Assembly: GCA_023511295.1 (NCBI GenBank)
Contig: JAIMBT010000001.1
Coordinates: 1-64,000 of the forward strand
Length of the DNA: 64,000 bases
From: Alicyclobacillus sp.
GTDB taxonomy: Bacteria; Bacillota; Bacilli; Alicyclobacillales; Alicyclobacillaceae
Direction: 5' to 3'
Below are positions 7,125 through 61,722 of the stretch, piece after piece. The stretch's first letter is position 1; each line of letters begins with the position of its first letter. Both the position numbers and the translations under genes were made by a program. The notes under the pieces were generated by a model that worked only from the letters and a program-made list of their open reading frames with translations, searched no databases and had not been told where the DNA came from.

Positions 7125-7775
7125 GTGCCGTTTCGCGGTTTTGAAGCCGCTGACTTCGAAGTGTTTGAGGTACCAGGTCTGGAACGGCGGATGGAGGCCT
7201 TACAGGCCCACCTTCGCCCGAAACTCGTGGAACTGGGCGAGCTGTTCGCGCCGCAACTCGCTGCGTGGACGGGGCGGCCGTTCTACGCGCACGTCGCGAA
7301 GCATGCGCGCCGGACCGTGAACCCGCCAAACGACAGTTGGGTCGCATTTTGCGAGGACAAGCGGGGGTACAAGAAACACCCGCACTTTCAGATTGGGGCC
7401 TGGGCCACCCACGCGTTCGCGCTGTTCGGCGTCATCTACGAATCTCCCGCACGCGCTTGGTTTGCCCGCCAGTTGGTGGAGCATGCGGAGGCCGTTGTGC
7501 GACGGATTCCCGGAAACTACGTGTTCGTCCCGAACCATATGGACACAGCGGTCATTCCAGCGTCCGAAGTGGATGCGGAGCGACTGTGCGCGTTGGCGTC
7601 AGACCTGCAGAACAAGCGCCACGGTGAGCTCTTGGTCGGCATCCAAATCCGCAAAGAGGAAGCGGTCGCCATGTCCGGGGCTGCATTTGCCGAGGCCGTC
7701 GCGGCGTGCTTTGAAACGCTGTTGCCCCTCTACGCCCTGGCGAACACGGAAGAGATAGGAGTGGAGCTGGTATGA
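7125..7775 (+). CDS. yktB: UPF0637/DUF1054 protein YktB
   Basis: This is a 216-aa cytosolic protein of the UPF0637 (DUF1054, YktB) family, conserved across Bacillales and without a known biochemical role. Family landmarks include the opening FRGF...DFEVF, the central KHARRTVNPPNDSW and the KKHPHFQIG segment. The GTG at 7125 is chosen because GGAGGGAG at 7113-7120 is correctly spaced and the protein then starts at the conserved residues. Its last codons overlap the next gene by 4 bp (ATGA), which points to translational coupling with the HD hydrolase. Confidence 0.87.
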   Translation: MPFRGFEAADFEVFEVPGLERRMEALQAHLRPKLVELGELFAPQLAAWTGRPFYAHVAKHARRTVNPPNDSWVAFCEDKRGYKKHPHFQIGAWATHAFALFGVIYESPARAWFARQLVEHAEAVVRRIPGNYVFVPNHMDTAVIPASEVDAERLCALASDLQNKRHGELLVGIQIRKEEAVAMSGAAFAEAVAACFETLLPLYALANTEEIGVELV

Positions 7776-8344
7776 AGACGAGGTCAGAAGCCCTCGCGCT
7801 GCTGCACGAGTACACACAATCGGAGTCGCTCTTGCGCCACGCCTACGCTGTCGAAGCGGCATGCCGCGCGTACGCGCGGAAGTTCGGCGAGGACGAGGAG
7901 AAGTGGGGCATCACGGGCCTCCTGCACGACTTCGACTATGAGCGCTACCCGACCCCGCTTGAGCACACGATTGTCGGCGCACAGATCTTGGCCGAGCAGG
8001 GGTATCCGGAGGATGTGATTCACGCCATCCAGGCGCACGCGGACTACAACCACCTGGAGCGGTCTTCGCTGTTGGACAAGACCTTGTACGCCTGCGACGA
8101 GATCTCAGGCTTCGTGATGGCCGTTGCGATGGTCCGCCCGACCCGCAACTTGGCGGATGTCGAGGTGAAGAGCGTCAAGAAAAAGCTGAAAGACAAGGCG
8201 TTTGCCCGCGGCGTCAACCGCGACGACGTGTACCGCGGAGCCGAGGAGCTCGGCGTCCCGTTGGACGAGCACATCGCGTTCGTCATCGAGGCGTTGTCCG
8301 GCGTGGCGAGCGAACTCGGATTGGACGGGTCTGCCGCCGACTGA
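7772..8344 (+). CDS. HD-domain metal-dependent phosphohydrolase
   Basis: This encodes a 190-aa HD-superfamily protein. The metal-binding residues are visible: H24 in LRHAYAV, the HD pair in GLLHDFDYER, then H in HTIVGAQI and H in IQAHADYN. These are followed by D in ACDEISGF, as in HDIG-type phosphohydrolases. The family usually cleaves nucleotides or phosphoesters, but this subgroup (often annotated only as HD hydrolase) has no assigned substrate. Its ATG overlaps the yktB stop by 4 bp. A convergent or regulatory context is absent, so function stays open. Confidence 0.8.
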   Translation: MKTRSEALALLHEYTQSESLLRHAYAVEAACRAYARKFGEDEEKWGITGLLHDFDYERYPTPLEHTIVGAQILAEQGYPEDVIHAIQAHADYNHLERSSLLDKTLYACDEISGFVMAVAMVRPTRNLADVEVKSVKKKLKDKAFARGVNRDDVYRGAEELGVPLDEHIAFVIEALSGVASELGLDGSAAD

Positions 8345-8483
8345 CGATACGGCGGAGACGTCCTATGGGAAAATCGACGCGGCCTCGGGGACGTCGCATT
8401 CATTTTCGGTGGTCAAGGCGTGTATGCTGAAACGAGCCCCGTTTCGCAAAACTCGTCGCCCACCACACACAGGGGTGGCTCTC

Positions 8484-9239
8484 ATGCCGTTGTTGTCTCG
8501 GGCCGAAACGCGCCGCATGCTCGGTAAATTGGAAACCGCGTACCCGGACGCGAAGTGTGCTCTCAACTTCTCGACACCGTTCGAGCTGCTGATTGCGACC
8601 ATCTTGTCCGCACAGTGTACGGATGCGCGGGTCAACATGGTGACCGAAAACTTGTTCAAGAAATACCGCGGCCCAGAGGACTACGCGGCCGTCACACCGG
8701 AAATACTGCAAGAAGACATACAGTCGCTAGGACTGTTTCGCGCCAAGTCGGAGAACATCGTGGCCGCTTGTCGCATGTTGCTCGAACGCTTTGGGGGCGA
8801 GGTGCCGAGGACACAGGATGAGCTGGTGCAGTTGCCGGGCGTGGGGCGCAAGACGGCAAACGTGGTGCTCTCCAACGCCTTCGGCATTCCGGCACTCGCC
8901 GTGGATACGCACGTTCAACGGGTTGCGAACCGGATTGGCTTGGCCAATTCGATGAACCCCAACCTGACGGAGCAGCAGATCTGCCAGCGCGTGCCCCAGA
9001 AGTTGTGGAGCCAAGCGCATCACTGGTTGATTCACCATGGCCGGCAGGTGTGCACGGCGCGCAACCCGAAGTGCGACGTTTGCCCGGTGCAGGCGCACTG
9101 TCAGTTTTACCGCAAATTGCAAGAGGAAGAGAAGCTTCGGGAAAAGGTGTTTGAGGCGAAGACAGCGGGCAAGAAGCGCGGTCGGTCCGGGCCACACCCG
9201 CGCAAAGGCGCGGCCTCGAGTGGGCGGTCGAGGGGTTGA
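8484..9239 (+). CDS. nth: Endonuclease III
   Basis: This is the bifunctional DNA glycosylase/AP lyase that removes oxidised pyrimidines in base excision repair. The 251-aa product shows the helix-hairpin-helix motif LPGVGRKTANVV with the catalytic lysine, the catalytic aspartate in VDTHVQR, and a C-terminal [4Fe-4S] ligand set C-x6-C-x2-C-x5-C (CTARNPKCDVCPVQAHC). After the cluster there is a basic 45-residue tail, longer than in E. coli Nth. ATG 8484 has AGGGGTGG upstream. The open frame extends upstream but the family N-terminus begins here. Confidence 0.93.
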   Translation: MPLLSRAETRRMLGKLETAYPDAKCALNFSTPFELLIATILSAQCTDARVNMVTENLFKKYRGPEDYAAVTPEILQEDIQSLGLFRAKSENIVAACRMLLERFGGEVPRTQDELVQLPGVGRKTANVVLSNAFGIPALAVDTHVQRVANRIGLANSMNPNLTEQQICQRVPQKLWSQAHHWLIHHGRQVCTARNPKCDVCPVQAHCQFYRKLQEEEKLREKVFEAKTAGKKRGRSGPHPRKGAASSGRSRG

Positions 9240-9256
9240 GCCCTGGCTCCATCTGC

Positions 9257-9291
9257 GGCGGACCGGGTCCTGCGGTAGGGTCCGGTCTGCC
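9257..9291. terminator. Hairpin between convergent nth and ygzB
   Basis: GGCGGACCGG (9257-9266) pairs with CCGGTCTGCC (9282-9291), giving a 10-bp stem with one G-T pair. It lies between the 3' ends of nth and ygzB, so it may stop transcription from both sides. No T-tract follows. Confidence 0.5.
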
Positions 9292-9299
9292 GACTCGAG

Positions 9300-9683
9300 C
9301 TACGGGGAACCCGGGTTACGGCCCACCCGGTCTGCGGCCGGGTTCGGGTCGACCGGCACAGACGTCGTGCGGGCATCGCCCGTTTGGACATCCGGCTCGT
9401 AGGAGCCGCTGGGCGTTCGCCGCAATGTCAGGTGGCAGTGGGGACAGGCGTCTATCTCGCCGGTCAGGCGAGCGGATTGGCCGCAGCGCGGGCACGTCAC
9501 CTTCTGGATGGACGTGTTCACCGGCCCGAATCGGAAGTACAGAAGGATGCCGATGACGACGCCGATTCCGCCCACCACCAGCAAGTAAGGCAGCAGGGCG
9601 CGGCTGTACATCCCGCAGTACATCACGAAGAATCCGCCGAACATGAAAACAAGGGCCCAGTTGCGCCACTTGTTCGAGTTCAC
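9300..9683 (-). CDS. ygzB: UPF0295/YgzB-type membrane zinc-ribbon protein
   Basis: This 127-aa protein has two membrane helices (about residues 8-26 and 30-50) followed by a zinc-ribbon knuckle pair, CPRCGQ and CPHCHL, around residues 63-85. The layout matches the UPF0295 (DUF2614) family represented by B. subtilis YgzB, of unknown function. The last 40 residues are a low-complexity tail not found in YgzB. The GTG start at 9683 has GGGAGGGG 6 nt upstream. It is transcribed toward nth. Confidence 0.83.
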   Translation of the reverse strand: MNSNKWRNWALVFMFGGFFVMYCGMYSRALLPYLLVVGGIGVVIGILLYFRFGPVNTSIQKVTCPRCGQSARLTGEIDACPHCHLTLRRTPSGSYEPDVQTGDARTTSVPVDPNPAADRVGRNPGSP

Positions 9684-57425: not shown

Positions 57426-57593
57426 CTCGGAAATCTCCACCTTTCTTGAGAGGGTCCTTCGTAAGCCATGATACAGGTTTCCCAGGCCTGTTCGCTGCAC
57501 CAAGTTTCCAGGGGTGGTTGACAACGGCATCCATGAAAGCGGTGTGATATAGTTTCCCTATCATCGCTTGTGGCAGCTGAGGGAGGCATGCGG

Positions 57594-59615
57594 ATGGGGC
57601 GGGTTGTACGGGTCGTTCAGTGGCTGTTGATTGCTGCGGTTCTTGTGCTGTTGGTGGAGGCCCCGCACGGACAGGCAGCGGGCCAGTCGTCGCTCTACCC
57701 GCAGCCCATCCACGCCTTCAGCTGGCATGTGTACGGACAACAACTGGCTGCCTTGGGGCACGGCATCCTCACGCTGTCCTTCGGCAAGACCGTGGTCGAC
57801 GGTTCCCCCGTGATGCCCCAGGTGTGGCGGACGGCGTGGAGGTCCATCGTGTTCATGGCAATCGCGCTCTTCATCGTGCTGGTCGGCGGTGTCGCGAAAG
57901 GCATCTACGATGGCCTTCACGCCGGCAAGCAGACTCGGGGCTTCGCTCTGTCGTCCTTTGTGCAGTGGTTCCTCGAATCGGTGCCGGACTTCTTCGTCAT
58001 CGTGACGCTGGAGACCATCGTGTTTGCGGTTGAAATCGCCACGCGCCAGCAGATCCCGTTTATCGGCAGCGCCCTGTTCATCCCGGGCATACTCGTACCT
58101 GCAGTGACGCTGTCGCTCGTCCCGACGATGTTCATGGCACGGGCCGTTCGGACCGCAGTGGAAGAACAGTTCGGACAGTTGTACCTGGTCACAGCTCGGG
58201 CGAAAGGCCTCAGCGCCCGCCGTGTGCTGTGGAAGCACCTGTTGCCGAACCTCCTCTCCACGATTCGCGTCGCCAGCGTTCCGGCATTGGCGATGCTCTT
58301 CTCCGGGCTCATCATGGTGGAATATCTTTACTACCAACACGGCCTCTTGTACGGGCTGTTTTCCGCGATGGGGAACAGCGGATCGGAGCCGGTGTACGAC
58401 CACCCCATCGACGCGGGTGGGCAGGTGGTGGCGGTATTCAGCCCGTTCGACCGCAACCTCGTGCTCGGGTACCTGACGGCCTGCCTCCTGGTGTTCGTCG
58501 CGTTCTACGCCATCGTCGCGCTCATCCTCGACATGGCGGGATACCGCAAGGTGCGAAACCCTTATACCAGTGTGCTCCGCGACACGTCCGCTTCGGGTAA
58601 GGTGGACTGGCTGCTCTGGCCCGGGGCGTTGATGCTCGTGCTCCTCTGTGCCGCTGCGGCGCTGGCGAACCACCTCGGCTTGCCGGCACCGGACCAGATG
58701 GACGCCATTCATATCACGAGTCACTCCATGTCTACTCCGGCCTTCCCACCGTCGGCGCAGCACCTGTTGGGGACGGACCGCTATGGGCGCGACATGCTGA
58801 GCAATGCCTTGCACGACACCCTACCGACGTTTCTGTATGCCGGCATCGCCACGGTCGGCGTGATTTTCCTCGGGACGGGGCTTGCCGTCCTGTCGTCCAT
58901 CGTGGGGTGGCGCCCTGTGCGCTTCTTGATTGAGACGTGGAACGGCTGCGTCAGCCTCATCCCGGGTGTGGTCGGCGCACTGCTTATTCTGGAGTTGCCG
59001 CCGGTCTACTGGCTCGGCGTCCATGTGGAATCCAACGGCAGCTCCTACTGGGGGCCCATCCATGCGGTCATCTACATGTGTGTGATTGCCCTGATTGAAA
59101 CGGGGAAGGTGTCTTACGTCATCCAACACGTCCTCGACGACGCTTCGGACAAGGAGTATATGGACGCGGCGGAGATTTCCGGAAATACGCGCTGGACCCG
59201 GTTCCTGATTCACCTCTGGCGGCCACTCGTGGAGACGGCGTCGGAGCAGCTGTTCGTGGAGTTCAACCGGATTGTCATCCTTGTCGCCGTCGTCGGTTAC
59301 TTCCAGATTACGCTCGGGCAGGCGTGGATTCCGTCACAGGCCGGGTACGTGTTCGTCAACACGTCGCACGATTGGGGCGGTTTGTTCGCGGATACGGCGC
59401 ACGAGTTCTTTGCGTCGCCGTGGGAACTGATGGCACCCGCCCTGTTCGTCGCGTGGACCGTCTTCGCCATGAACCTGATTTTGGAGTCTGTGCGGCGCCG
59501 GGTCCGGTCCGTGCCGCGGCAGCCGAAGGGCCTCGCTCGCTCGTTTCCCTACCGGTTGATTGCAACAGCGGCGCGCACGGCCGACCGAGATCAGGTATCG
59601 CAGCACGTGTACTGA
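57594..59615 (+). CDS. Fused peptide/nickel-type ABC permease (DppB-DppC in one chain)
   Basis: This is a 673-aa inner-membrane protein made of two BPD_transp_1 permease domains. The first (about residues 70-330) contains the EAA-loop-like TARAKGLSARRVLWKHLLPN; the second (about 360-640) starts after LGTDRYGRDMLSNAL, as in DppC/OppC proteins, and has its own EAA-like MDAAEISGNTRWTRFLIHLWRP. A signal-like hydrophobic N-terminus precedes it. Usually the two permeases are separate genes. ATG 57594 is favoured over 57588 by GGGAGG spacing. No ATPase gene is adjacent; the peptide-binding lipoprotein at 63093 may be its partner. Confidence 0.82.
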   Translation: MGRVVRVVQWLLIAAVLVLLVEAPHGQAAGQSSLYPQPIHAFSWHVYGQQLAALGHGILTLSFGKTVVDGSPVMPQVWRTAWRSIVFMAIALFIVLVGGVAKGIYDGLHAGKQTRGFALSSFVQWFLESVPDFFVIVTLETIVFAVEIATRQQIPFIGSALFIPGILVPAVTLSLVPTMFMARAVRTAVEEQFGQLYLVTARAKGLSARRVLWKHLLPNLLSTIRVASVPALAMLFSGLIMVEYLYYQHGLLYGLFSAMGNSGSEPVYDHPIDAGGQVVAVFSPFDRNLVLGYLTACLLVFVAFYAIVALILDMAGYRKVRNPYTSVLRDTSASGKVDWLLWPGALMLVLLCAAAALANHLGLPAPDQMDAIHITSHSMSTPAFPPSAQHLLGTDRYGRDMLSNALHDTLPTFLYAGIATVGVIFLGTGLAVLSSIVGWRPVRFLIETWNGCVSLIPGVVGALLILELPPVYWLGVHVESNGSSYWGPIHAVIYMCVIALIETGKVSYVIQHVLDDASDKEYMDAAEISGNTRWTRFLIHLWRPLVETASEQLFVEFNRIVILVAVVGYFQITLGQAWIPSQAGYVFVNTSHDWGGLFADTAHEFFASPWELMAPALFVAWTVFAMNLILESVRRRVRSVPRQPKGLARSFPYRLIATAARTADRDQVSQHVY

Positions 59616-59753: not shown

Positions 59754-60266
59754 ATGTCAGTGGCGGAGGCGTTGCATCGGATGGACCGCGACGTCGCTCT
59801 GGAAACGGTCAGCATCCGTACAGAGGATGACGTCTACGTTGCACTAGCCCTGGCCCGGCGCGCGATGCGGGGGCTTCCGTTCACGGACATGGATGCACAG
59901 CAGGTCCTGGTCAGCGTGTCGGAGCTCACCCGGAACGTGCTGGCGCATGCCGTGGGGGGTGCTGGCTCCTTTAAGTGTGGCCTTGTGCCACGAGGGATCT
60001 ACATACGGGTCACAGACCACGGGCCGGGGATTTTGAACCTGGACGACGTCTTGGAAGGGCGCAACCGCCTTCCGACGTCCGGTCTCGGCTTGGGACTAGC
60101 GGGTGTCATACGGTTGATGGATGACGTCGACATCCGGACGTCTGCGGGAGGGACGACCATTCGTGCAGTCAAATGGACGCGACAAGGCCGGGTCGGGTCT
60201 GGGCGAGGAGCAGACGCTCAGCCGGCTGGCGGCGATTGGCAAGATATCGGCTGGCATCGCCCATGA
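59754..60266 (+). CDS. RsbT-like serine kinase / anti-sigma-type GHKL ATPase
   Basis: This 170-aa protein has the RsbT-type Bergerat ATP-binding fold: N box in VSELTRNVLAHA, DHGPGI in the G1 box, and the lid GLGLGLAGVIRLMDDV. In the B. subtilis stressosome, RsbT phosphorylates RsbR/RsbS and then activates RsbU. RsbT is about 133 aa; here the 20 or so C-terminal residues are extra and lie in the overlap with the next gene. ATG 59754 is chosen from the promoter position. It is directly upstream of a kinase with an RsbR-like STAS domain, its likely substrate. Confidence 0.8.
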   Translation: MSVAEALHRMDRDVALETVSIRTEDDVYVALALARRAMRGLPFTDMDAQQVLVSVSELTRNVLAHAVGGAGSFKCGLVPRGIYIRVTDHGPGILNLDDVLEGRNRLPTSGLGLGLAGVIRLMDDVDIRTSAGGTTIRAVKWTRQGRVGSGRGADAQPAGGDWQDIGWHRP

Positions 60267-61722
60267 AATCCGCAATCCGCTGACTGCCGTGAAGGGCTTC
60301 TTGCAACTCTTGCAAGAAGAGCATCCGCACCGCTACCTCGAGGTGGCCAGCAGCGAACTCGATAGGGCCATCCTGACGTTACAGAACCTTCTGCAAGTGT
60401 CGAAACCCGACCTCGACGACGAACCGGTGCAGGCGGTGTACCTGTGCGCCGAGATGGAGTCCATCCTCTACCTGTTTCAGGAGCAACTGTACCGCGTCAA
60501 AGTGGACAAGCAGTTTCAGGACGAAGATCAGTCCATTTACGTGAAACGGAATCAGTTTAAGAAAGTCTTCTTCAACCTGCTCAAAAACGCTTTTGAGGCC
60601 ATTCGCGGTGAGGGCACCGTCACCATCGTCCACCGACGGGAAGGAAACCACCTCCGCATTTCCATTCAGGATACCGGCGTGGGCATCGCGGAGGAAGACC
60701 TGCGGTTGCTCGGAACCCCGTTCTTCTCCACGAAGGAACAGGGGACGGGCATGGGGTTAACTCAGGTGTATTCGACGGTCTACGAACATGGCGGCCGCAT
60801 CGAGGTCCACAGTGAGCTGGGGCGTGGAACCGAATTCACACTGGAGCTTCCGCTCTACCCGGTGGCGCCGATTGGAGGGGAGAATTTGTCACTAGAATAC
60901 GAGGACGGACAGACGTTCCAGGCATTCGCTGAGGCCAACTGGGCGTCGTTTGAGGATCATTTCCGGGCCCAAGCGCCACACTCGTTTCGGTACATTGAGG
61001 AAAACGACTGGACGCCCGACGGGCTGTTTCGCCTGATTCACGAACTGTTCACGTCCATCGTGACTGGCAACAAACACGAACTGAACCGTCATGGCAAGGA
61101 GTTTGGCAAGAGTGCGGCGAAGCAAGACCACCCGCTCGTGTTGATTCTCGAGTTGACGGAAGCGTTCCGGACGACGCTGTGGGATTTTCTGTACCAGTAC
61201 CACGTCAACCATCCGCTCAGTGCCGATGAAGTGTTCCACCTGCAGCGGCAGTACAACGGGATGCTCGATGCGTACCTATCGCAATACTACATCGCCTATA
61301 TCGATTACAAGAACGAGATCTTGCGTTCACACCGCGAGGCGATAGATGACTTGTCGGTGCCGGTCATTCCGCTTTCCGACACGCAGGCCATCCTGCCGCT
61401 GGTCGGGACCATCGACACCCATCGGGCCAAGACCATCCAGGAGAAAACGCTTCAACAGATCTCGCAGCTGAGACTGGAGCACATTGTGATTGACGTCTCG
61501 GCGGTTGCCTTCCTCGACACCGCCGTGGTGGGGCACCTGTTCCGCATCATCGAGGGGATTGGACTCTTGGGTTGCGAAGCGACGATTACCGGCATCCGGC
61601 CGGAGATTGCAAACGCGATGATCTCCCTCGGCATCTCCTTGAGCGGGAAGGTGGAGACGAAAGCAACCCTGCAGCAAGCGCTCGAGAGCCGTTTGTTAAA
61701 GCGGTCGCCAGATCTCCCGTAG
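60163..61722 (+). CDS. Hybrid histidine kinase with RsbR-like STAS domain
   Basis: This 519-aa protein combines modules that are usually separate. Residues 20-85 are a HisKA domain with the phospho-accepting H34 (GIAHEIRNPL); residues 130-245 are a HATPase domain (NLLKNAFEA, DTGVGIAEEDL, STKEQGTGMGL). Residues 265-390 form an RsbR-N-like helical domain, and residues 400-519 form a STAS domain (VGTIDTHRAK, LDTAVVGHLF, TGIRPEIANAMISLGIS). Both threonines corresponding to RsbRA T171 and T205 are kept (in IDTHRAK and LDTAVV). GTG 60163 has GGGAGGG upstream, so the gene overlaps the RsbT-like gene by 104 bp. A membrane or sensory domain is absent. Confidence 0.85.
   Translation: MQSNGRDKAGSGLGEEQTLSRLAAIGKISAGIAHEIRNPLTAVKGFLQLLQEEHPHRYLEVASSELDRAILTLQNLLQVSKPDLDDEPVQAVYLCAEMESILYLFQEQLYRVKVDKQFQDEDQSIYVKRNQFKKVFFNLLKNAFEAIRGEGTVTIVHRREGNHLRISIQDTGVGIAEEDLRLLGTPFFSTKEQGTGMGLTQVYSTVYEHGGRIEVHSELGRGTEFTLELPLYPVAPIGGENLSLEYEDGQTFQAFAEANWASFEDHFRAQAPHSFRYIEENDWTPDGLFRLIHELFTSIVTGNKHELNRHGKEFGKSAAKQDHPLVLILELTEAFRTTLWDFLYQYHVNHPLSADEVFHLQRQYNGMLDAYLSQYYIAYIDYKNEILRSHREAIDDLSVPVIPLSDTQAILPLVGTIDTHRAKTIQEKTLQQISQLRLEHIVIDVSAVAFLDTAVVGHLFRIIEGIGLLGCEATITGIRPEIANAMISLGISLSGKVETKATLQQALESRLLKRSPDLP

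Follow-up and report, generated by a model that had tools for sequence, protein, structure and literature searches.

The stressosome of Bacillus and Listeria is built on RsbR, RsbS and RsbT, and in a model B. subtilis stressosome signalling does not strictly require phosphorylation of T171 (PMC3944199). A two-gene locus of Alicyclobacillus sp., found in a 64,000-nucleotide stretch of contig JAIMBT010000001.1 (the window), resembles this system in three respects: its middle and STAS regions are colinear with Listeria RsbR, both phospho-threonine positions are present, and an RsbT-family partner is encoded. It departs from the stressosome in that the RsbR part shares one protein with a histidine kinase core, and the genome lacks RsbS, RsbU, RsbV, RsbW and sigma-B, which gives no grounds to expect a classical RsbR:RsbS shell.

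The kinase core finds its counterpart in KinA-KinE of B. subtilis, which feed Spo0F. Like them, it is an orphan with a HEIRNPLT...GF.QL H-box and the specificity residues of KinA and KinE, in a genome that encodes Spo0F, Spo0B and Spo0A. In KinA-KinE the sensor region is an N-terminal PAS or membrane sensor, whereas here it follows the kinase core on the C-terminal side and is of RsbR/STAS type, and a Ser/Thr-type kinase partner is encoded together with the fused kinase.

Another related system is B. anthracis BA2291, a sporulation kinase with a non-heme globin sensor that is inhibited by related plasmid proteins (PMC5862856). The likeness lies in the coupling of a globin-type sensor, the type of the RsbRA N-domain, to a Spo0F-directed kinase. 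The BA2291 sensor is N-terminal, unlike that of the fused kinase, and BA2291 is not known to have a STAS domain or an RsbT partner. One relative of the fused kinase gives a weak match to the HisK_N Pfam model (E 0.09).

That stressosome parts can be linked to a two-component output is also already known. The rsbRSTX modules of Vibrio and other proteobacteria have histidine kinase/REC outputs without sigma-B, and RsbT-dependent phosphorylation of the downstream sensor kinase has been proposed for them (PMC9237108). In those modules RsbR, RsbS and RsbX are separate proteins and the kinase is a downstream gene unfused to RsbR. No description of an RsbR-kinase fusion paired with RsbT was found in the mainly open-access literature searched.

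Gene pair, domains and genomic setting

A sequence-only reading of the window had described a single protein with HisKA (H34), HATPase and STAS domains, the last retaining both threonines targeted by RsbT, and Pfam searches and alignment to Listeria RsbR bear this out (Table 1). The HisKA (E 2e-14), HATPase_c (3e-24) and PF01740 STAS (2e-15 in one search, 4e-16 in another) matches all fall in one open reading frame (60121/60163-61722). A Shine-Dalgarno sequence, GGGAGGG, lies just 5' of GTG 60163, and from this start the overlap of 104 bp with the RsbT-like gene is exactly as first described. The start of the RsbT-like gene itself needs correction: ATG 59781, which is preceded by GGAGG and near which most relatives begin, is the more likely start than ATG 59754, which would lengthen the gene by 27 nt.

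Table 1. Features of the gene pair in the window
Feature	Coordinates	Strand	Remarks
RsbT-family GHKL serine/threonine kinase gene	59781..60266	+	161 aa from ATG 59781; PF13581 E 4e-12
Fused histidine kinase-RsbR gene	60163..61722	+	519 aa, GTG start; Pfam domains
HisKA domain, H34 in IAHEIRNPLTAVKGFLQLL	60223..60411	+	specificity residues TAGFQL
HATPase_c catalytic domain	60550..60858	+	PF02518 E 3e-24; N142, D170, G194 intact
Putative RsbR-type N-terminal (RsbRD_N-like, helical) domain and linker helix	60889..61374	+	colinear with Listeria RsbR
STAS domain	61381..61677	+	PF01740; best PDB matches are stressosome RsbR chains
T419 codon	61417..61419	+	counterpart of RsbRA T171; predicted RsbT phosphosite
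T453 codon	61519..61521	+	counterpart of RsbRA T205

The RsbT-like protein matches HATPase_c_2 (PF13581, the RsbT/SpoIIAB class; E 4e-12) and has an intact E/N N-box and intact G1/G2 motifs (DHGPGI, GLGLGLAG); E57, N61, D88 and the GLG motif are invariant across 17 relatives. With profile A3, canonical RsbT proteins score 85-116 bits and RsbW/SpoIIAB-type proteins about 50 or less, which places the protein nearer to RsbT than to SpoIIAB/RsbW. A second SpoIIAB was ruled out by the lower scores to the SpoIIAB family. In two genomes (L204/L205 in G166 and G225) there is an RsbT-like gene of another kind, standing alone, and the next gene encodes ~350-360 aa (DUF1232 in G166).

The STAS domain of the fused protein has its best solved matches in the RsbR chains of the Listeria and Vibrio stressosomes, and T419 and T453 align with the two threonines of Listeria RsbR. 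The weakest part of the first description was its RsbR-N-like domain, for which the window protein gives no Pfam match; RsbRD_N is matched in only 2 of 43 relatives (best E 2.6e-5). The assignment draws instead on a profile of the middle and STAS regions from 25 relatives, which aligns end to end with full-length Listeria RsbR (residues 3-257, E 1.4e-38). For the middle region alone the best PDB match is an RsbR N-domain (E 0.045), with 2bnl also among the matches, and in hhalign it reaches 93.7% when the linker is included; when the linker is left off, P is 0.002 (shuffled columns, 0.14 or worse). An AlphaFold model made without an alignment was poor (mean pLDDT 58), and its Foldseek match to 7b0u is not counted as independent support for the middle domain. 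With moderate confidence, the middle region may be called RsbR-type; its assignment as a sensor domain, taken on its own, is weak.

No response regulator adjoins the pair, as the sequence-only reading had noted; the flanking frames encode a transporter and a C26 peptidase. Upstream in the window, a single 681-aa frame (57570-59615) contains two BPD_transp_1 permease domains and resembles fused oligopeptide/nickel permeases, with OppB- and OppC-like halves.

Absences from the genome were called on an assembly 99.6% complete. Its only two STAS domains are those of SpoIIAA and the fused protein, so that neither RsbS nor RsbV is found. Only two stand-alone HATPase_c_2 proteins exceed the cut-off, SpoIIAB and the RsbT-like protein, the other matches being histidine kinases or weak; SpoIIAB is the only anti-sigma GHKL protein, and there is no RsbW. 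A PF07228 search of the genome for phosphatases of the RsbU or RsbX kind returned just SpoIIE and one PrpC/Stp-like PP2C, with no RsbU-like phosphatase, and no sigma-B exceeds the family cut-off.

The orphan kinase half and Spo0F

The sequence-only reading had allowed that the kinase module might be degenerate. That possibility is rejected: the 519-aa reading carries H34, N142, D170 and G194, and almost all family members retain the catalytic motifs undamaged. The HATPase_c domain has PDB matches in ZraS (9jfj) and KinB (3d36). Specificity residues were read by the anchoring of Davidson et al., Table 1 (PMC6136694), with EnvZ as position control. The six HisKA residues read TAGFQL, the same set as in B. 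subtilis KinA and KinE, and recur exactly in 31 of the 50 family members that could be read. Similar residues, with the pattern T-x-G-F, occur in seven further HEIRNP-type orphan kinases of this genome, while most of its paired kinases have a different H-box, HELRTP- or HELKTP-like. The genome's Spo0F carries the published Spo0F specificity residues, and its Spo0B gene sits between rpmA and obg.

By these residues the fused kinase is classed as an orphan of the Spo0F type, which would account for the missing adjacent response regulator. Since TAGFQL is the KinA/KinE set and Spo0F, Spo0B and Spo0A are encoded while sigma-B, RsbS and RsbV are missing, Spo0F is most likely the cognate regulator that the earlier reading had left to be found. 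An output that is very probably Spo0F, given the identical specificity residues, would make the fused protein a stress-to-sporulation input.

Distribution of the pair and retention of the threonines

A peptide-pattern search of the genome contig collection returned only a Rhodococcus kinase; the distribution given here rests on the whole-genome searches that replaced it. Of 59 genomes from the order, about 20 have the fusion; each of the 11 RsbT-like genes detected across the 59 sits directly upstream of a fused kinase. Among 399 sampled genomes of class Bacilli there were 48 matches, about 41 of them intact full-length fusions once kinase-only or broken matches were removed, and the phylum sample added a single match, from the same class. 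The fusion is thus widespread in Bacilli and not unique to Alicyclobacillus sp. The sequence-only reading had asked whether the architecture might be both widespread and characterised; the first half holds (about 41/399), and for the second no description was found in the literature searched.

Several loci show variants of the pair. At L042 (G025, about 7760-9440) the fused gene is split by an insertion with a DDE transposase (DDE_Tnp_1_4) while the upstream RsbT-like gene is intact, and at L044 (G054, upstream of 8724, minus strand) both genes have decayed. At L045 and L046 (G014, G004) the STAS domain lies in another frame or in an ORF separate from the kinase and middle part, and two RsbT-paired members (L164 in G340, L165 in G136) have ~110 extra N-terminal residues with a PAS-like look. 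Plasmids carry partial relatives: Priestia megaterium pBM400 encodes a stand-alone STAS protein (L209, 4013-4849) that shares ~35% identity with the window protein's C-terminal half and has no RsbT annotated beside it. On a Mesobacillus foraminis plasmid (L210) the N-terminal half has a relative consisting of the kinase alone, and a gene for a Spo0E-family phosphatase lies ~1.4 kb off.

RsbT lies directly upstream of the fused kinase in 25 of 52 full-length family members, and the distances of the two proteins correlate (Mantel r 0.92). Conservation at 25 loci rules out an annotation accident. The fused protein could in principle be no more than an orphan sporulation kinase whose regulatory tail is unrelated, and RsbT might hitch-hike beside it without function. 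Such a reading draws on how common RsbT-less fused kinases are (27 of 52) and on there being only two or three independent losses, but the pair persists in 12 family codes amid non-conserved flanks, and only members with a dedicated RsbT retain the threonines, which are lost where the genome has canonical sigma-B-type RsbT alone; we regard this reading as very improbable.

The retention of the threonines argues further for a dedicated partner. The T171 counterpart is kept in all 25 RsbT-adjacent members and both threonines in 24, compared with both in 4 of the 27 members without adjacent RsbT (Fisher p 1e-9 for the ungrouped count). For two of the four exceptions, a dedicated-type RsbT is encoded at another site in the genome, scoring 188 and 168 bits where canonical RsbT reaches at most 116; the third (G166) has only a divergent RsbT (133 bits), and in the fourth (G134) the gene is cut by a contig edge. 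With the first two regrouped and G166 and G134 left out, both steps taken after the exceptions had been seen, both threonines are present in 26 of the 27 members that have a dedicated RsbT (T419 in 27, T453 in 26) and in none of 23 without (Fisher p 2e-13, a value that ignores relatedness). Loss of the threonines where only canonical RsbT is encoded argues for a dedicated partner. Weighing against this model, one locus (L032) retains both threonines beside a frameshifted RsbT.

Among 35 conserved STAS columns, that of T419 is the one least retained in the RsbT-less set (0.04, a value shared by one other column), and kinase-core columns average 0.94. In a tree built without the STAS columns the RsbT label changes only three times, corresponding to two or three independent losses; because these are so few, an independent-pairs sign test, although it follows the prediction, is not significant (p 0.5). 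Phosphomimetic replacement in RsbT-less members was ruled out, the replacements being mixed (N, L, A, H, E, D, K, P).

Other STAS columns that putatively face RsbT (A, Q, H and F near the threonines) are lost along with them. This joint decay makes a general relaxation of the STAS domain a possible account of the threonine loss. It is also what a docking surface predicts, and the RsbT-like protein might be a binding partner only, an allosteric inhibitor or STAS chaperone for which the threonines are contacts and not phosphosites. Phosphorylation-independent stressosome signalling is documented (PMC3944199), yet the N-box and G1/G2 motifs of the RsbT-like protein are conserved and both threonines occupy known RsbT phosphosite positions, and pure binding seems unlikely.

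Candidate wiring and its meaning

The conserved RsbT/histidine kinase pair and the retention of the threonines only with a dedicated RsbT support well the earlier proposal of a link between two-component and partner-switching signalling. That proposal left open whether the kinase controls STAS phosphorylation or is controlled by it. RsbT acting on the kinase is favoured because members that lack RsbT keep an intact kinase, which gives RsbT the look of a dispensable input. In the reverse wiring, the histidine kinase half would sense or be set by the phosphorelay, and the RsbR half would hold or release RsbT as an output on another target, an RsbU substitute. Classical stressosomes do release RsbT as a messenger (PMC3944199), and RsbT adjacency and threonine retention fit both directions, but no RsbU-like phosphatase was found in the genome and the fully intact kinases of RsbT-less members imply that kinase output survives without RsbT. 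We consider the reverse direction improbable.

For the favoured direction, the locus is probably an RsbS-free, two-gene stressosome derivative wired to sporulation, in which RsbT would phosphorylate the STAS domain and so adjust a kinase directed at Spo0F. The RsbR half, a helical sensor-like domain and STAS, follows a KinA/KinB-type orphan kinase core in the same protein, and the co-translated RsbT-like kinase would dock on the STAS domain and phosphorylate T419 and possibly T453. STAS phosphorylation and sensing by the RsbR-type domain would together set the kinase/phosphatase balance of the histidine kinase, whose phosphate would pass to Spo0F, Spo0B and Spo0A. The domains, their intact motifs, the conserved pairing, the joint occurrence of RsbT and the threonines, the Spo0F-type specificity residues and the lack of RsbS, RsbV and sigma-B are read directly from sequence; we infer the phosphorylation of the STAS threonines, Spo0F as the partner and the direction from RsbT to the kinase. 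There is about an even chance that the system is a self-contained, RsbS-free "mini-stressosome", in which threonine phosphorylation of the fused STAS by RsbT gates a Spo0F-feeding kinase and Ser/Thr partner-switching and a His-Asp phosphorelay share one polypeptide, kept in Bacilli with the unit lost several times.

How general stress sensing joins the sporulation decision in Bacilli is an old question. If the proposed wiring is true, a single protein would bring the stress and sporulation machineries together, and would do so in an organism that has no sigma-B. Because some family members have RsbT and the threonines and others do not, natural controls are at hand, and the role of RsbT phosphorylation can be tested apart from RsbS and the shell, which has been hard in classical stressosomes.
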